From Salinisphaera shabanensis E1L3A (GTDB lineage: Bacteria; Pseudomonadota; Gammaproteobacteria; Nevskiales; Salinisphaeraceae), in NCBI RefSeq assembly GCF_000215955.2, contig NZ_AFNV02000009.1, positions 1-64,000 of the forward strand: a DNA stretch of 64,000 bases, written 5' to 3'. The notes under the pieces are model-generated. The model made no database searches, was not told the DNA's origin, and was given only the letters and a program-made list of their open reading frames with translations. A program made the position numbers and the translations under genes. This document shows, piece after piece, positions 37,788-45,522 of this stretch (positions are counted from its first letter, which is position 1; each line of letters opens with the position of its first letter).

Positions 37788-38219
37788 TCACGGCCGGCCC
37801 AGCAATTCATGCAATACGTCGCCGTTGACCACCAGATCACTCAAATCGTAGCCATCGAGCACCTGCAGAAACGCTTGCTGTGCCTCGGCCAGCGCCCGTT
37901 TGAGCACACAAGCCGGGTCGATCGGGCATGTCGAATCCGGGCCGAAACATTCAAGCAGACGCAAATTCTCCGTACGGCGGACAAGCGCGCCGATGTTGAT
38001 GGACTCGGCCGGCATGGCCAATGCGAGTCCGCCGCCGCGGCCGCGAAAACTGTGCAGATAACCGAGCTGCACGAGTGTCTGCGCCACCTTGGCGACGTGG
38101 TTGGCGGAAATACCGTAGCGGGCAGCTGCATCCTGTACGCGTGCCGGCGTACTGTCCTTGCGCACGGCCATAAAAATTAGCAGGCGCAACGCGTAATCGG
38201 TATGGGTGGTGAGCTGCAT
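37788..38219 (-). CDS. nsrR: Rrf2-family nitric-oxide-sensing repressor NsrR
   Basis: A 143-residue Rrf2 protein. A winged HTH occupies residues 1-80 (MQLTTHTDYALRLLIFMAV, GISANHVAKVAQTLVQLGYLHSFRGRGGGLALA). The three cluster-binding cysteines occur in ECFGPDSTCPIDPAC, the NsrR spacing. NsrR carries an iron-sulphur cluster, and NO damages it and lifts repression. The gene is divergent from hmp, its classic target, with 74 bp between the starts, so hmp is probably under its control. Length is normal. Confidence 0.93.
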   Translation of the reverse strand: MQLTTHTDYALRLLIFMAVRKDSTPARVQDAAARYGISANHVAKVAQTLVQLGYLHSFRGRGGGLALAMPAESINIGALVRRTENLRLLECFGPDSTCPIDPACVLKRALAEAQQAFLQVLDGYDLSDLVVNGDVLHELLGRP

Positions 38220-38223
38220 GTGC

Positions 38224-38268
38224 TTGACCCCAAATAGGTAAACTATATACTCATTTTAAACAGGTAAA
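38224..38268 (+). promoter_or_regulatory. hmp promoter with possible NsrR-region repeats
   Basis: TTGACC (38224-38229) and TATACT (38246-38251) are 16 bp apart, a good sigma-70 promoter for hmp. The heptamer AGGTAAA occurs twice, at 38236-38242 (inside the spacer) and 38262-38268, 26 bp apart in direct orientation. An NsrR site is expected here, but the canonical palindrome is not clear. Confidence 0.6.
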
Positions 38269-38293
38269 TCAGATGCCACTTTAGGAGGCACGC

Positions 38294-39520
38294 ATGCTCA
38301 CCGACCAACAGACAGAAACAATCAAGGCCACGGCGCCCGCCCTTCAGGCCTGTGGCGAAGAGCTGGCGCGCGACATGTATGCCCGCATGTTCCGCAACAA
38401 CCCCGAGGTAAAGCCCTACTTCAACCCCGCCCATCAGCAATCCGGCCGTCAGCAGCGTGCCTTGGCGTCGGCGGTGTGCGCCTACGCACAGTATGTAGAC
38501 AACCCGGCCGCCCTGAGCGACGTGGTGGAGCTGATCGCGAACAAGCATGTTTCGCTCGGGATTCTTCCGGAACACTACCCGATCGTCGGCAAGAACCTGC
38601 TCGCGAGCATCGAACACGTAATGGGCGCCGCCGCCACTCCGCAAGTGCTCGATGCCTGGGCCGCCGCCTACGCACAGCTGGCCGATATCTTCATCAAGCG
38701 CGAACATTCATTGTACGACGCCAAGCAGCAGCGCTACGGCTGGACTGGCTTCAAGCCGTTCGTTGTCACCCGACGCGAACCGGTATCCGACAACATCGTG
38801 TCGCTGTATCTCGAGCCCGAAGACGGCCAGCCGCTGGCCGCCCACAAGCCGGGTCAGTACGTGGCCATTCACACGTCGCTACCCAACGGCGGCACGGCCT
38901 TGCGCAATTACAGCCTGTCGAACGCGCCCGGCACGCCCTATTACCGGATTAGCGTGAAGCGCGAAGAGGCGGCGAGCGCCGGGGCACCCGCCGGCGTGTT
39001 CTCGCACTATGCACACGACGAACTGGCCGTCGGCGATCGCGTACGTCTGAGCCCGCCGTGCGGCGAATTCACGCTGTCCCCGGCCACACAACCCAGCCAC
39101 CCTCTGGTGTTGCTGGCCGGCGGTGTCGGCATCACGCCGTTGCTGTCCATGCTTCACGCGGCGCTCGAGGAACAGCCGGCCCGCCCGGTGATCCTGATTC
39201 AAGCAGTGCGCGAAGAACGGCTACGGCCTTTTGTCGAGGAGTTAGGCGCGCTTGCGACCACGCATCCGAGTTTCACGCTGCACGTGCGCTATAGCGACGC
39301 GGCACCGCGAACCACGCCCGACGGCGCGCAAGTTAGTCAAGGCGTCATCGACAACACGCTACTCGACGAGCTACTGGGTGATCAGGCCGGAGAGTATTAC
39401 TTCTGCGGCCCGCCCGCCATGCTCTCGCACGTATGCCAGGTTCTGGATACACGCGGCGTTGGCGCGGGCGACATGCACTACGAGTTCTTCGGTCCGGCCG
39501 ACTCATTGGAGGCCGCATGA
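38294..39520 (+). CDS. hmp: Flavohaemoglobin nitric-oxide dioxygenase
   Basis: A 408-residue protein (family about 395-400). Globin domain about 1-140, with the proximal-His helix ANKHVSLGILPEHYPIVG. FAD domain 150-260 with RNYSLSNAPG and GVFSHY. NAD domain 265-400 with VLLAGGVGITPLLSML and FCGPPAML. It converts NO and O2 to nitrate with NADH. The start is supported by AGGAGG 6-7 bp upstream. Its stop overlaps the ATG of the Rieske gene (ATGA), so the two are coupled. Divergent nsrR supports NO-induced expression. Confidence 0.97.
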   Translation: MLTDQQTETIKATAPALQACGEELARDMYARMFRNNPEVKPYFNPAHQQSGRQQRALASAVCAYAQYVDNPAALSDVVELIANKHVSLGILPEHYPIVGKNLLASIEHVMGAAATPQVLDAWAAAYAQLADIFIKREHSLYDAKQQRYGWTGFKPFVVTRREPVSDNIVSLYLEPEDGQPLAAHKPGQYVAIHTSLPNGGTALRNYSLSNAPGTPYYRISVKREEAASAGAPAGVFSHYAHDELAVGDRVRLSPPCGEFTLSPATQPSHPLVLLAGGVGITPLLSMLHAALEEQPARPVILIQAVREERLRPFVEELGALATTHPSFTLHVRYSDAAPRTTPDGAQVSQGVIDNTLLDELLGDQAGEYYFCGPPAMLSHVCQVLDTRGVGAGDMHYEFFGPADSLEAA

Positions 39521-39840
39521 CATCGTCGGACTGGACCGCGGTTGCCCGCGTCGGCGAAATCCCCGATCAGCAGTGTTTACGCTGCGATATCGACGATGAG
39601 CCGATCGCGGTCTACAACCTCCGCGGTGAGTATTTCGCGATCGAGGATCGCTGCAGCCACGACGACGGCGAACTCGCCGACGGCTGGGTCGAAAACGGGT
39701 GCGCGGTCTGTCCGCGTCACGGTGCGCGCTTCGACATTCGCACTGGGCGGGTAACCGCGCCGCCGGCCTACGAGGATATTCACAGCTTTCCGCTGCGAGT
39801 CGTCGGCGATGTGATTGAAGTGTACGACGATCGCGACTAA
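39517..39840 (+). CDS. Rieske [2Fe-2S] ferredoxin-like protein
   Basis: A 107-residue small Rieske protein of the non-haem dioxygenase ferredoxin type. Both cluster motifs are present: C-x-H in DRCSHDDGELADG and C-x2-H in CAVCPRHGARFDIRTG. ATG 39517 overlaps the hmp stop codon by 3 bp, so it is translated with hmp. Such a pairing suggests electron transfer or cluster repair under NO stress, but that role is inferred only from position. Confidence 0.9.
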   Translation: MTSSDWTAVARVGEIPDQQCLRCDIDDEPIAVYNLRGEYFAIEDRCSHDDGELADGWVENGCAVCPRHGARFDIRTGRVTAPPAYEDIHSFPLRVVGDVIEVYDDRD

Positions 39841-39888: not shown

Positions 39889-40578
39889 CTACGCAGAATA
39901 ACGGCGCAGCGCGCTCACGCTCGGGATATGCACGTGCGCGCCTTGCATACGAATGATGTCTTCTTCCTGGAGTACGCGCAGCACGCGCGAAAGCGTTTCC
40001 GGGGTTACGCCCAGATGGTTGGCGATCACACCCTTGCGCGTGGGCAGGCTCAGATCCGCGCTCGGGGCTTCGGCAGTCGGCACCAGACCGAGCAGATAAT
40101 GAACGATGCGGTATTGCGTGTTCTGCAGCGTCAGCGCTTCGATTTCGTCCCAGTGCGACTGGATGCGCTCCGTCATACGGGCCATCACGGTCCGGCAAAT
40201 CGCGAACGAAGTTTCCATCACACGCATATAGGCCGGGGTCGAGATCGACACCAGCCGTCCCGGCGTGAGCCCCTGCGCATTGACCGGGTAACGCGGCTCT
40301 CCCATGAACATCACGCTTTCGGCGAAGCTCTGCCCTGCCTGGATCAGGCGCATGATCTTTTCATGACCGCCGGCTGACACGCGAAACAGCTTGATAGTGC
40401 CACGGTCCAGCATGAAGAACGACGATGCATGATCGCCCTGGTCGAACAGCGTTTCGCCCTGTTCGAATGCCCGCACATGCAAATGCGGTCGAAGCTCCGC
40501 CATCTGCGCGTCGCTCAGATCGGCGAACAGATAGTGCTTGCGCAGTTCCGCCACCAGGCGTTCATCCGGGCTACTCAT
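39889..40578 (-). CDS. dnr: Crp/Fnr-family regulator, Dnr type
   Basis: A 229-residue protein. The cyclic-nucleotide-type beta barrel is at about 20-130 (GETLFDQGDHASSFFMLDRGTIKLFRVSAGGHEKIMRLIQAGQSFAESVMFMGEPRYPVNAQGL). A dimerisation helix follows (RMTERIQSHWDEIEALTLQNTQYRIVHYLL), then the HTH at 175-215 (TRKGVIANHLGVTPETLSRVLRVLQEEDII). The E-x2-SR recognition helix (PETLSRVL) predicts TTGA-N6-TCAA targets. It lacks the N-terminal cysteines of FNR, so it is Dnr-like, sensing NO through haem. A matching box lies 48 bp upstream, and another precedes nrdJa. ATG 40578 is chosen over 40608. Confidence 0.88.
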   Translation of the reverse strand: MSSPDERLVAELRKHYLFADLSDAQMAELRPHLHVRAFEQGETLFDQGDHASSFFMLDRGTIKLFRVSAGGHEKIMRLIQAGQSFAESVMFMGEPRYPVNAQGLTPGRLVSISTPAYMRVMETSFAICRTVMARMTERIQSHWDEIEALTLQNTQYRIVHYLLGLVPTAEAPSADLSLPTRKGVIANHLGVTPETLSRVLRVLQEEDIIRMQGAHVHIPSVSALRRYSA

Positions 40579-40597: not shown

Positions 40598-40639
40598 AGT
40601 ACAAGCAAGACTGGCCACTGTTTCCTTGATGCCGGTCAA
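40598..40639 (-). promoter_or_regulatory. FNR/Dnr box and class II promoter of dnr
   Basis: On the minus strand TTGACCGGCATCAA (40626-40639) fits TTGAT-N4-ATCAA with one mismatch. A -10-like TGTACT lies at 40603-40598. The centre-to-centre distance is 32 bp, as expected for a box at -41.5, suggesting autoregulation. Confidence 0.65.
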
Positions 40640-40881
40640 TGGCCTGCCAGCCCAGCATCGCTATATTCCGGGCACGGAGCCTACCCGCTCAAGCGCCTGT
40701 CTTCACAATCGCCTCATAGCCGAGCACGCCCCCAAGCCACCATGATCTTCGACGAGGCCTGCATCACTATGCCGTCTATTGTACCGAGGCCATCGCACCG
40801 GCCGCATGCGCACGTGCACCACGACCCCGCGATAGCCCGTTCTTGCTGGCAACGGATACAGAACAGCGGGCACACGTGCAG

Positions 40882-41343
40882 ATGACACTGCCCGGATTCG
40901 CGCTGGCGGTGCACGTGCTCTCGGTCGTCTGGTGGATCGGCGGACTGGCGTTCGTCACGCTCGTGTTTCTGCCGGCACTGCGGCGTGAACTCGATGACGA
41001 TCCACCCCGGCTCTTTGAAGCGATCGAGCACCGCTTCTCGCTGCAAGCACGCATCGCACTCATTCTGACCGGGCTGTCCGGCTTTTACCTGCTATACGCC
41101 TTCGATGCCTGGGCATGGCTGGCATTACCGCGTTTCTGGTGGTTGCAGGCGATGATCGGCTACTGGCTGTTGTTCGCGCTGGCACTGTTCGTCGCCGAGC
41201 CGCTCGGTCTAATGCAACGGCTATTTTTCGGCGCGCGCGACCCAAATCGTGCGTGGCGATACTTTCATGCTCTACATGCTGCTCTATTGGCCGGCGGCGC
41301 TGTCATCATCGCCGCAGCCGTTGCAGCCAATCACGGGCTCTAG
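40882..41343 (+). CDS. CopD-like integral membrane protein
   Basis: A 153-residue protein with four transmembrane segments: LAVHVLSVVWWIGGLAFVTLVFLPAL, IALILTGLSGFYLLYAF, WLQAMIGYWLLFALALFVAEPLG, and LHAALLAGGAVIIAAAVAA. His in the first helix and WWIGG are typical of the CopD/YkoY-like haem-binding or copper-transfer membrane group. No copper genes are near; the setting is between dnr and nrdJa. ATG 40882 is chosen, directly before the first helix. Confidence 0.7.
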   Translation: MTLPGFALAVHVLSVVWWIGGLAFVTLVFLPALRRELDDDPPRLFEAIEHRFSLQARIALILTGLSGFYLLYAFDAWAWLALPRFWWLQAMIGYWLLFALALFVAEPLGLMQRLFFGARDPNRAWRYFHALHAALLAGGAVIIAAAVAANHGL

Positions 41344-41499
41344 CCACCCCGGCGCTGCTATCCGCCAGCCCAAGCCGTCAAGCGTTTGCCGGCGGAGCCC
41401 TTGAAAACTGCGACGCGACGACGCGCCCGAGCGCTACAGGCCGCGCTATCGACGCTAGCGCCTCAATGCACGCCCTGCATTAAACACAACATGTAGCGA

Positions 41500-41541
41500 T
41501 TGACGCAGATCAAACCACAACATGGCGCGTTCCGGGATAGT
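41500..41541 (+). promoter_or_regulatory. FNR/Dnr box and class II promoter of nrdJa
   Basis: TTGACGCAGATCAA (41500-41513) has the same half-sites as the box upstream of dnr. A -10-like GATAGT lies at 41536-41541, again 32 bp centre to centre, placing the transcription start near 41548 and about 34 bp before the ATG. Confidence 0.7.
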
Positions 41542-41581: not shown

Positions 41582-43738
41582 ATGACATCCATCGCCCTCG
41601 CCCGTCGCCCTTCCAGCGCCGATTTCGACATCCCGCTACAGGCGGCGTCACTGGATATCTGGGATAAAAAATATCGATTGAAGTCCAAGGACGGGCAGCC
41701 GCTGGACGCGGATGTGGACGCCACCCGTCAACGTGTCGCCCGGGCGCTCGCCGACGTCGAGACGAACGACGACAAGCGCGAGGAATGGTATAAGAAATTT
41801 CTCTGGGCGCTGCGCCACGGCGCCATCCCGGCCGGCCGTATCATCTCCAATGCCGGCGCACAGGCACACAAACCGGCCACGTCCACCATCAACTGCACGG
41901 TCTCGGGCATCGTCGAAGACTCCATGGATGCGATTCTGGGCAAGGTGCACGAAGCCGGGCTCACGCTTAAAGCCGGCTGCGGCATCGGCTACGAGTTCTC
42001 CACGCTGCGGCCGAAGGGCGCCTATGTTTCGGGGGCTGGCGCCTATACATCCGGGCCGCTGTCGTTCATGGATATCTACGATCGCATGTGCTTCACGGTG
42101 TCCTCCGCGGGCGGTCGCCGGGGCGCGCAGATGGCCACCTTCGATGTCGGCCATCCGGACGTGCTCGACTTCATCCGTGCCAAGCGCGAATCCGGTCGGC
42201 TGCGGCAATTCAATCTGTCGCTGCTGATCACCGACGAGTTCATGCAGGCCGTACAAAGCGATGCCGATTGGCCGCTCGCGTTCCCGCTGCTCGAAGAAGA
42301 AGCATCGAGCGGCGAAGTGAATGTCGATGATCCGGCCCAGGTGATCTGGCGGGAGTGGCCATGCAGCGAGGGTTACGTCTCGCGCGAGGACGGCGCGGTG
42401 GCGTGCCGCATCTATCGAACGGTCAAGGCCCGGCGTGTATGGGACATGATCATGACGTCGACCTATGACTACGCCGAACCGGGCTTCATTCTCATCGACC
42501 GCGTCAACGAACTGAACAACAACTGGTTCTGCGAAGAAATCCGGGCGACCAATCCCTGCGGCGAGCAGCCGCTGCCGCCTTATGGCGCCTGTCTGCTGGG
42601 CTCGATCGACCTGACCTGTTTCGTGCGTGACCCGTTTACCGACAACGCCCATTTCGACTGGGACGAATACGCCCAGGTGGTCGACGTGTTCACTCGAATG
42701 CTGGACAACGTCGTGGAGATCAACGGTTTGCCACTGGCACGCCAGCGCGAAGAGATCATGCGCAAGCGGCGCCACGGCATGGGCTTTCTCGGGCTCGGTT
42801 CCGCGCTGACCATGCTGCGTATGAAATACGGCGATCCCGACTCGCTGGAATTCACCGAGCGCGTCGCAAAAGAGATGGCCCTGCAAGGCTGGCGTGCCGG
42901 GCTACAGCTCGCCGAGGAAAAAGGCGCCGCGCCGATCATGGACGAAGAATTCACGGTCAGCGAGGCAATGGTCACGCGCCGCCCGGAGATGATCGCCGAC
43001 GGCTATAGCGTCGGCGATACGATCAAGGCGCGCGTGCTGCACGCCAAGTACAGCCGCTACATGCAAAAGATCGCCGCCGAAGATCCGTCACTGGTCGAAC
43101 GGCTTGCCGAACACGGCGCCCGCTTCACCCACCACAGCTCGATCGCGCCCACCGGCACGATCTCCTTGTCGCTGGCGAACAACGCCAGTAACGGCATCGA
43201 GCCGAGCTTTGCACACCACTACTTTCGCAACGTCATTCGCGAAGGCCGCAAGTCGAAAGAAAAGGTGGATGTCTTTTCGATGGAGCTGCTCGCCTATCGG
43301 CACCTCATCGATGCCGAGGCACGCCCAGGCACCGATCCACAGACACGCAATCTGCCGGCGTACTTCATCACGGCCGATGAGATCACGCCCAAACAGCATG
43401 TTGATGTGCAGGCCGCGGCCCAGAAATGGATCGACTCCAGCATCTCGAAGACGGCCAATGTGCCGACCGATTATCCGTACGAGGATTTCAAGGACATCTA
43501 TCGCTACGCCCATCAACAGGGCCTCAAGGGCTGCACCACGTTTCGCTTCAACCCGGAGGCGTTCCAGGGCGTGCTGGTCAAGGAAAGTGACCTGAGCAAC
43601 ACCACGTACCGCTTCGTACTGGACGACGGCGCCGTGGTCGAAGCCAAAGGCGGCGACGAGATCGAATACGACGGTGAAACCCATACCGCCGCCAACCTGT
43701 TCGATGCCTTGAAAGAAGGCTACTACGGCCGCTTCTGA
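41582..43738 (+). CDS. nrdJ: Adenosylcobalamin-dependent ribonucleotide reductase, large part (NrdJa)
   Basis: A 718-residue class II reductase that makes dNTP precursors independently of oxygen, using coenzyme B12. STINCTVSG (redox Cys), LKAGCGIGYEFSTLRPKGAYVSGAGAYTSGPLSFM, NPCGEQPLPPYGACLLGSIDL with the radical Cys near 326, and SSIAPTGTISLSLANNASNGIEPSF are the expected blocks. As in pseudomonads, the C-terminus is moved to a separate gene 30 bp downstream. ATG 41582 is chosen for its AGGAG site. The upstream box suggests induction by Dnr under low oxygen or NO. Confidence 0.95.
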   Translation: MTSIALARRPSSADFDIPLQAASLDIWDKKYRLKSKDGQPLDADVDATRQRVARALADVETNDDKREEWYKKFLWALRHGAIPAGRIISNAGAQAHKPATSTINCTVSGIVEDSMDAILGKVHEAGLTLKAGCGIGYEFSTLRPKGAYVSGAGAYTSGPLSFMDIYDRMCFTVSSAGGRRGAQMATFDVGHPDVLDFIRAKRESGRLRQFNLSLLITDEFMQAVQSDADWPLAFPLLEEEASSGEVNVDDPAQVIWREWPCSEGYVSREDGAVACRIYRTVKARRVWDMIMTSTYDYAEPGFILIDRVNELNNNWFCEEIRATNPCGEQPLPPYGACLLGSIDLTCFVRDPFTDNAHFDWDEYAQVVDVFTRMLDNVVEINGLPLARQREEIMRKRRHGMGFLGLGSALTMLRMKYGDPDSLEFTERVAKEMALQGWRAGLQLAEEKGAAPIMDEEFTVSEAMVTRRPEMIADGYSVGDTIKARVLHAKYSRYMQKIAAEDPSLVERLAEHGARFTHHSSIAPTGTISLSLANNASNGIEPSFAHHYFRNVIREGRKSKEKVDVFSMELLAYRHLIDAEARPGTDPQTRNLPAYFITADEITPKQHVDVQAAAQKWIDSSISKTANVPTDYPYEDFKDIYRYAHQQGLKGCTTFRFNPEAFQGVLVKESDLSNTTYRFVLDDGAVVEAKGGDEIEYDGETHTAANLFDALKEGYYGRF

Positions 43739-43768: not shown

Positions 43769-44464
43769 ATGGCCATAAGAATCGACCGCAAGATCGTCGA
43801 CTACAACGTCGCCCGACCGGACGACGAAGCGCCGCAAGCGCCCGCCGCACCGGAAATCGAGCACATGCACGAGCAGCTGCAGCGCCCGGACCGGCTCGAA
43901 GGCAAGAGCTACAAGGTGAAAACACCACTGTCCGACCATGCGTTGTACGTCACCATCAACCACGTCGTACTCAACGCCGGTACCGAGCACGAGTCACGCC
44001 GTCCGTTCGAGATGTTCATCAACTCGAAGAACATGGACCATTTTCAATGGATTGTGGCGCTCACGCGTATCGTGTCTGCCGTATTCCGCAAGGGCGGCGA
44101 CTGCACGTTTCTGGTGGAAGAGCTCAAGAGCGTATTCGACCCGCGCGGCGGTTACTTCAAGAAAGGCGGCAAGTTCATGCCGTCGCTGGTCGCCGAGATC
44201 GGGGACATCCTTGAGCAGCATCTTCAGCATATCGGGATGCTCGATGTCGACCCGCTGGATGAACACCAGAAAGCGTTCATTGCCGCCAAGCGCGCGGAAA
44301 TCGACGCCCGGCAACCGCAAAAACAGACCGACGCCGATTGCGACGACAGCGCGGCCGAATTCCCTGACGGCGCGCAGCTGTGTACCAAGTGCCATACCAA
44401 GGCCATGGTGATGATGGACGGCTGCCTCACCTGCCTGAACTGCGGCGACTCCAAGTGCGGCTAG
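43769..44464 (+). CDS. nrdJb: Ribonucleotide reductase class II C-terminal subunit (NrdJb, TSCPD)
   Basis: A 231-residue protein that supplies the C-terminal part of split class II reductases. The TSCPD-like domain covers about 45-160: YKVKTPLSDHALYVTINHV, RRPFEMFINSKNMDHFQWIVALTRIVSAVFRKGG. At the C-terminus CTKCHTKAMVMMDGCLTCLNCG carries paired CxxC motifs, a zinc ribbon or redox relay. It forms an operon with nrdJa (30 bp gap). Confidence 0.93.
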   Translation: MAIRIDRKIVDYNVARPDDEAPQAPAAPEIEHMHEQLQRPDRLEGKSYKVKTPLSDHALYVTINHVVLNAGTEHESRRPFEMFINSKNMDHFQWIVALTRIVSAVFRKGGDCTFLVEELKSVFDPRGGYFKKGGKFMPSLVAEIGDILEQHLQHIGMLDVDPLDEHQKAFIAAKRAEIDARQPQKQTDADCDDSAAEFPDGAQLCTKCHTKAMVMMDGCLTCLNCGDSKCG

Positions 44465-44850: not shown

Positions 44851-45522
44851 ATGGACACCCACCGCTACAGTGCCAGCGACATCGACGCGGTCTATCGCGT
44901 GATCGCCCAACGACGCGACATGCGCCATTTCCGACCCGATCCGGTCGCGCCGGAGATGCTCCAGCGCGTACTGGCCGCGGCGCATTGCGCGCCGAGTGTC
45001 GGCTACATGCAGCCCTGGCGATTCATTCGTGTGCTCGACCGCGCCTTGCGCGCGGCCATTCGCGACGATGTGGAAGCCGAGCGGCTACGCACCGCCGAGG
45101 CCATGGGCGAACGACACGATGAATTCATGCAGCTCAAGGTCGAAGGCATGGACCAGTGTGCCGAACTGCTGGTAGTCGCCTTGACCGACGGTCGCGCGCG
45201 CCATGTATTCGGGCGCCGCACGATGCCGGAAATGGATCTGGCCTCGGCCGCCTGTGCGATTCAGAATCTCTGGCTGGCCGCGCGGGCCGAAGGCCTGGGC
45301 ATGGGCTGGGTTTCGCTTTTCGAACCCGAGGTACTGGCACGTCGGCTTGATATGCCCGCGGGTGCCGCACCGATCGCCATTCTCTGTCTCGGCCACGTGG
45401 ACGCGTTCTACGATCGCCCCATGCTCGCTGAACAGGGCTGGGCCGAACGTTTATCGCTGACCGATCTCATCGGCGTCGACAGCTGGCCGCGTGCGTCGGA
45501 TGATACGAAACGCTCGTCTTAA
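44851..45522 (+). CDS. bluB: 5,6-dimethylbenzimidazole synthase BluB
   Basis: A 223-residue nitroreductase-fold enzyme that breaks FMNH2 with O2 to give dimethylbenzimidazole, the lower ligand of B12. The signature RRDMRHFRPDPVAPEMLQRVLAAAHCAPSVGYMQPWRFIRV, then GMGWVSLFEPEVLARRLDMP is diagnostic. It sits behind the B12-dependent reductase genes, so cofactor supply and use are neighbours. The ATG at 44851 begins the conserved region; a long upstream extension has no conserved content. Confidence 0.93.
   Translation: MDTHRYSASDIDAVYRVIAQRRDMRHFRPDPVAPEMLQRVLAAAHCAPSVGYMQPWRFIRVLDRALRAAIRDDVEAERLRTAEAMGERHDEFMQLKVEGMDQCAELLVVALTDGRARHVFGRRTMPEMDLASAACAIQNLWLAARAEGLGMGWVSLFEPEVLARRLDMPAGAAPIAILCLGHVDAFYDRPMLAEQGWAERLSLTDLIGVDSWPRASDDTKRSS

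Follow-up and report, generated by a model that had tools for sequence, protein, structure and literature searches.

In Pseudomonas aeruginosa, nrdJ, the gene for the B12-dependent (class II) ribonucleotide reductase (RNR), carries an Anr/Dnr box centred at -84 relative to the start codon. Mutation of the box, of dnr or of anr lowers anaerobic induction of the gene, and Dnr dependence was documented with mutants, by mutating the box and on Western blots (Crespo et al. 2016, PMC4860495). Two NrdR boxes are reported for each P. aeruginosa RNR promoter in the accessible part of PMC4409342, and an excerpt of PMC12176259 gives the NrdR spacing as 15 bp between 16-bp boxes. For Salmonella nrdDG, the portion of PMC2892513 at hand describes an NrdR1 site that overlaps an FNR site and suggests that loss of NrdR binding lets FNR bind. 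Here, we compare these systems with a locus of the salt-loving denitrifier Salinisphaera shabanensis E1L3A, in which a dnr-like gene lies close to nrdJ.

The dnr–nrdJ locus of S. shabanensis

The window, that is the whole stretch of DNA analysed, comprises 64 kb of the S. shabanensis E1L3A genome (3.76 Mb in 41 contigs). In the window, dnr is located on the minus strand (39889..40578, ATG at 40578) and encodes a Dnr-like CRP/FNR-family regulator of 229 aa with cNMP-binding and HTH_Crp_2 domains. The plus strand contains a gene for a small four-helix membrane protein (40882..41343, ATG at 40882), which lies between the two activator boxes described below, followed by nrdJa and nrdJb. Specifically, nrdJa (41582..43738) encodes the catalytic subunit of a class II RNR, its AdoCbl-dependent NrdJ catalytic domain scoring above the curated cut-off (TIGR02504, 576 bits versus 400), and nrdJb (43769..44464, plus strand) encodes the second part of the split enzyme, with a TSCPD domain and a match to the C-terminal part of PRK08665. 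We refer to the small membrane protein as CopD/DUF4149-like, noting that its DUF4149 match and the CopD matches of its homologues are all sub-threshold and that a fold search with a structural model (pLDDT 77, six sequences) returned nothing at E < 1. An Rfam scan of the 64-kb window at gathering thresholds returned one tRNA only and no cobalamin riboswitch.

The locus is shared with a sister species (L057), with identities of 86% for dnr and 90% for nrdJa, and these two are the only ones among 14 Salinisphaera genomes with a full-length NrdJ. A match to the class III enzyme NrdD was found in none of the 14 genomes, three of which are < 90% complete. Because the genus shows no class III enzyme in these genomes, of the routes to DNA precursors found in a Salinisphaera denitrifier, nrdJ would be the only one that works without oxygen during denitrification. 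On the other side of dnr, the interval 37788-39840 encodes the flavohaemoprotein Hmp (475.9 bits, cut-off 432), a Rieske ferredoxin whose gene overlaps hmp, and a divergent Rrf2-family regulator that is possibly NsrR. Because these genes lie beside dnr and are kept in the sister species, the dnr neighbourhood looks like an NO-response island.

The initial annotation had proposed that bluB, encoding 5,6-dimethylbenzimidazole synthase (44851..45522, plus strand; TIGR02476, 259 bits), provides the cofactor for the reductase. The gene starts 386 bp past nrdJb (the likely ATG is residue 52 of the longest ORF), but the 12 kb around the sister nrdJ contains no BluB match, and the reaction catalysed by BluB depends on oxygen (PMC3573010). 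The link to bluB is weak: a local nrdJ–bluB unit is not conserved, and bluB is probably not part of the nrdJ switch. Because 13 of the 14 Salinisphaera genomes, S. shabanensis among them, encode cobyric acid synthase, some cobalamin route is likely.

A probable activator box within an NrdR-like pair upstream of nrdJ

Only two perfect matches to TTGAYNNNNRTCAA are present in the window, and both are where the initial annotation had placed them: box 1 (40626..40639; TTGATGCCGGTCAA in the plus-strand reading, TTGACCGGCATCAA in the minus-strand reading, 40639..40626) and box 2, TTGACGCAGATCAA (41500..41513, plus strand). Allowing one mismatch, the window shows no enrichment (6 sites versus 3.9 expected, with 17 of 100 shuffles reaching 6). 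Genome-wide, there are 18 perfect sites versus 2 for the reversed control; no called ORF covers 14 of the 18, and another is situated just ahead of the likely internal start of nnrS. Perfect boxes precede nnrS, norC, nirK, ccoN, nosR-nosZ, hemN and paaA, and are also found at ompW/an FNR-type regulator gene, at genes for a universal stress protein, a pyridoxamine-oxidase-like protein, a second Dnr-like protein and a di-haem peroxidase, and at that for an arcD-like antiporter, in addition to box 1 and box 2; two more are inside genes (chorismate synthase and TerC/Alx-like). The names ccoN, nosR and norC were assigned from general family matches and by eye. The targets are typical low-oxygen/NO genes. 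We also note a perfect box between a CbiX/SirB-like chelatase gene and sufT (L025:7197-7210, corresponding to contig C34:12196-12209), which has no -10 by the spacing rule given below on either side; the box before paaA (L021:7387-7400, contig C8), which encodes an oxygen-using phenylacetyl-CoA epoxidase, likewise lacks a -10 by this rule. Three other Salinisphaera genomes (G002, G005 and G007) have 38-51 perfect boxes each, two to three times the number in S. shabanensis.

To define the spacing between boxes and promoters in S. shabanensis, we used 15 promoter sides of 14 boxes, a set that omits box 1, the site between the CbiX-like gene and sufT, and the two sites inside genes. When distances of 14-55 bp from the centre of the box are compared, hexamers at 32 bp resemble TATAAT most, with a mean of 2.53 of 6 matching positions; the mean is 0.93 at both 31 and 33 bp, and the second-highest value is 2.2, at 55 bp. 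At 32 bp, six of the 15 sides have at least four matching positions. We then counted as a -10 any hexamer that lies 32-33 bp from the centre of the box and has A as its second and T as its sixth letter (background ~0.03 per position), a rule set after a first look at the dnr-orthologue loci; by this rule, a -10 is found on 12 of 15 gene-facing sides and on 2 of 15 other sides. The 32-bp spacing proposed in the initial annotation fits this genome.

Box 2 is centred 75.5 bp before ATG 41582, which is the likely nrdJa start: it has AGGAG ahead of it, and the sister ORF begins at the same place, while the ATG of the longest ORF, at 41522, sits 8 bp past box 2. The candidate nrdJ -10, GATAGT (41536..41541, plus strand; four of six matches to TATAAT), is 32 bp from the box 2 centre and 33 bp in the sister species, and both elements are kept there despite a poorly conserved intergenic stretch. 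A class II FNR/Dnr promoter is expected to have its box centred about 41.5 bp ahead of the transcription start and 32 bp ahead of the -10, and the nrdJ promoter shows the second of these spacings. Our working hypothesis, to which we assign a probability of roughly two in three, is that the nrdJab promoter is predicted to be of the class II FNR/Dnr type, together with the readings of the NrdR-like bracket and of box 1 given below. A CRP/FNR-family activator dimer on box 2 would replace the -35 contact and recruit RNA polymerase to GATAGT, switching nrdJ on in the presence of NO or at low oxygen, and the result would be an oxygen-independent source of dNTPs in denitrification, only in species with nrdJ. 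As a prediction, the nrdJ half of the earlier finding is sound, with NirK, NorC, NosR/NosZ and NnrS encoded behind the same motif and NrdD found in none of the 14 genomes, and such control has a precedent in P. aeruginosa.

Conservation of the activator box before nrdJ across the class was not found: searching the 500 bp before residue 35 of NrdJ, we detected a perfect box in 8 of 110 regions (reversed control, 0), and a -10 by the spacing rule accompanies the box in S. shabanensis and the sister species only. These regions comprise the two Salinisphaera loci, 28 loci with flanks of up to 1.5 kb (three of them shorter) and 80 stretches with ~0.8 kb upstream, one region (L104) having just 326 bp; they were drawn from the top of the match list, NrdJ being present in 194 of 369 genomes, and exclude matches with internal stops, partial or lower-scoring matches and some others, e.g. 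near contig ends. Four genomes from another family of the order (loci L030, L034, L035 and L037) share an element like GCAAGTCTAGC ... GGGAATAACACCCAA before nrdJ. In addition, NrdJ matches are split within open frames of ~1,090-1,210 aa in G037 (contig C31) and in class genomes such as G295, G215 and G205, which would suggest inteins in these nrdJ genes.

Box 2 is bracketed by two NrdR-like boxes. Using a matrix trained on nrdJ promoters of other genomes, without S. shabanensis and the sister species, NrdR-like box 1, ACACAACATGTAGCGA (41484..41499, plus strand), scores 18.6 bits, more than any other plus-strand position of the window; NrdR-like box 2, CCACAACATGGCGCGT (41515..41530, plus strand), lies 31 bp from it and, with 10.0 bits, is weak alone, as four window positions, itself included, score as high. 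Together, they are the best 31-bp pair in the window. The arrangement has the layout of an NrdR operator, i.e. two 16-bp boxes ~15 bp apart, albeit with a weak second box, and the 14-bp activator box sits inside the 15-bp gap. The sister species has the same layout, again with a weak second box (10.3 bits), so that the NrdR-like pair with an activator box in its gap is present in both Salinisphaera species found with nrdJ, which are two species only. The S. shabanensis genome encodes NrdR (200.6 bits). With a consensus for NrdR boxes, tandem matches occur in 35 of the 110 nrdJ regions at 31 bp and in 40 at 32 bp (letter shuffles, 1.0 and 1.8); the peak is broad, with 34 regions at 29 bp, 31 at 30 bp and 6 to 24 at the other distances from 24 to 45 bp, and becomes sharper at a stricter cut, with 31 and 34 regions at 31 and 32 bp versus 19 and 24. 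No NrdR boxes were found before nrdA of S. shabanensis and the sister species in the fetched stretches; in that of S. shabanensis the inspected part is coding, and the nrdA promoter probably lies beyond it.

As part of the working hypothesis, we infer that NrdR represses nrdJ and that NrdR and the activator exclude each other. Against this, the centre of box 2 is 15 and 16 bp from the centres of the NrdR-like boxes, or about one and a half helical turns, so that NrdR and the activator would be on opposite faces of the DNA and might bind together. The layout suggests that activation of nrdJ by NO or low oxygen is gated by dATP repression. In its full form, this would be a composite operator: the activator site takes up the NrdR gap, the two proteins compete for this DNA or bind it jointly, and an AND-NOT gate opens only at low dATP combined with high NO or low oxygen; we offer this scheme tentatively, as one that may well prove wrong. 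The composite pattern of NrdR-like box 1 plus activator box matches exactly in S. shabanensis and the sister species only among 369 genomes, and with at most one mismatch in six (reversed control, three). Two of the four near-matches outside Salinisphaera precede class I nrdA genes by 72 and 275 bp, and a looser form of the composite operator may recur, though neither has a -10 by the rule; in the L210 near-match, TTGACA could simply be a -35. Our literature search found no paper joining NrdR, Dnr, nrdJ and NrdR boxes, although the layout may still be published. The locus would provide a compact promoter for testing how NrdR represses and how it interplays with an activator.

Orientation of box 1 and identity of the activator

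According to the initial annotation, box 1 controls dnr, and a -10-like hexamer lies 32 bp from each box. Such hexamers are present, TGTACT (40598..40603, minus strand) on the dnr side and GATAGT at nrdJ, each with four of six matches to TATAAT; but the second letter of TGTACT is not A, no counterpart exists in sister locus L057, in which box 1 itself is conserved, and the hexamer is probably not functional. A better match, TATATT (40662..40667, plus strand; five of six), faces away from dnr 32 bp from the box 1 centre, and has the same sequence and distance in L057. On the dnr side, a conserved -10 at 32-33 bp was not found. Across the dnr orthologues, 12 boxes could be compared, and a -10 by the rule lies away from dnr in 11 of 12 and toward it in 1 of 12 (background for the two positions, 0.079); these boxes include three pairs of close relatives, which inflate the count, and two boxes of one locus, and a binomial value is not to be taken at face value because of these relatives and because the rule was fixed after the first look. 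CopD-like homologues near dnr in L060, L061, L062 and L064 have their own box, with a -10 by the rule in all four; in L060 and L062 the expected transcription start (L060:6603 and L062:6606) is at or adjoining the CopD-like ATG, and the gene may be leaderless there. In other loci, the divergent neighbours of dnr encode NnrS (L058) or DUF3470 ferredoxins of the FdxA kind (L060, L065 and L069). Because the conserved -10 is on the opposite strand and because of the 11 versus 1 orientation among orthologues, we suggest that box 1 probably serves the divergent CopD/DUF4149-like gene, its likely target, and that the dnr half of the earlier reading probably had the direction wrong. Box 1 would then mainly drive this gene rather than dnr. 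A weakness of this reading is the 5' leader of ~200 nt that it implies for the CopD-like gene in S. shabanensis. A scan for plus-strand terminators between the CopD-like and nrdJ coding regions found none, and read-through into nrdJ is possible. The orientation serves as a warning that a box beside a regulator gene need not mean autoregulation.

Two other explanations of the boxes were considered. If Dnr (or FNR) activated both dnr and nrdJ through the two matched boxes, the result would be an NO-keyed feed-forward loop. Box 1 indeed precedes the dnr start by 54.5 bp, and by 55.5 bp in the sister species, a box lies within 300 bp before dnr in 11 of 15 loci (S. shabanensis and 14 others), Dnr activates nrdJ in P. 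aeruginosa according to the available text of PMC4860495, and a box could act on dnr from some other position; against this stand the orientation data described above, and a divergent nnrS or DUF3470 ferredoxin gene would account for boxes near dnr, making such a loop distinctly unlikely in our view. Far less probable still is that box 2 is a chance match and that NrdR alone controls nrdJ. The rarity of activator boxes at nrdJ in the class would agree with this, but box 2 is a perfect match, has been kept in the sister species together with a -10 at the right distance, and belongs to an enriched motif set.

A further question is which protein would bind box 2. Three CRP/FNR candidates are encoded: the neighbouring Dnr-like regulator, the second Dnr-like protein, which is 43% identical, and an FNR-type protein that has a CX2CX5C motif (C41:264537-265097). 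That the neighbouring gene encodes a Dnr-like regulator, as first annotated, was borne out: the best solved relative of its product is P. aeruginosa DNR (3dkw, E 5e-40, top match), it lacks the CX2CX(4-7)C motif that is present in the C41 FNR-like protein and in E. coli FNR, and in a tree both Dnr-like proteins group with P. aeruginosa DNR apart from FNR/CRP (99/97), the node to P. aeruginosa DNR having modest support (92/71) and long branches. Its ETLSR aligns with ETFSR of DNR, and we take E-x-x-S-R in the recognition helix to be a criterion for the DNR type. The half-sites shared by the two boxes, to which the initial annotation had pointed, carry no information on the activator. Asymmetry of the half-sites was tried as a signature of Dnr versus FNR and rejected, as the use of TTGAC or TTGAT fails to separate norC from ccoN boxes. 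NO-related sites in S. shabanensis looked asymmetric (TTGAC/ATCAA), but the sister norC box and box 1 are symmetric, and across the class at least one C/G half-site occurs in 10 of 17 boxes before norB (30 loci, 16 with a box, within 1.4 kb) and in 10 of 19 before ccoN (30 loci, within 450 bp); norB replaced norC here because the norC query gave 6 of 369 genomes, too few. The box sequence cannot separate Dnr, the second Dnr-like protein and FNR/Anr. It is in this light that activation at box 2 (and box 1) by the oxygen sensor FNR/Anr instead of Dnr, keyed to oxygen and independent of NO, has to be judged: the genome encodes an FNR-type protein beside two Dnr-like ones, half-site types leave the norC and ccoN boxes unseparated, and bioinformatic studies could not distinguish Anr from Dnr sites, according to the accessible text of PMC4860495. 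Pointing the other way, dnr is within ~1 kb of nrdJ in both species found with nrdJ, a proximity that favours Dnr as the activator, and in P. aeruginosa the authors credit Dnr with activation of nrdJ and nrdD, with Anr acting via dnr (available text of PMC4860495 and PMC5645315). A Dnr-like match near nrdJ was found in 0 of 28 class loci with flanks of up to 1.5 kb (three shorter). We consider direct activation by FNR/Anr rather unlikely but possible; Dnr would be the most likely activator at box 2.

Comparison with known systems

The P. aeruginosa nrdJ promoter shares with the one described here the split enzyme type, the box consensus and a similar distance to the start codon (-84 there, 75.5 bp here). 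The order of NrdR and Dnr boxes is not given in the accessible P. aeruginosa text, and the layout there may or may not be the same; P. aeruginosa also has NrdD, whereas none was found in the 14 Salinisphaera genomes. The Dnr box of P. aeruginosa nrdDG in clinical strains is identical to box 2 in all 14 letters, as printed in the available text of PMC5645315, but controls a class III RNR, while box 2 precedes a class II enzyme. In E. coli and Salmonella, nrdDG combines an anaerobic activator and NrdR on one RNR promoter, as here (PMC2892513, accessible part); this again concerns a class III enzyme, and in E. coli NrdR box 1 is preceded by the FNR-like sites, the second of which overlaps it by 4 bp, instead of being followed by one in the gap. 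Class II promoters of the FNR/Dnr family place the centre of the box 32 bp ahead of that of the -10, as in S. shabanensis, and the sole difference from them, and the new element here, is the NrdR bracket around the activator box.
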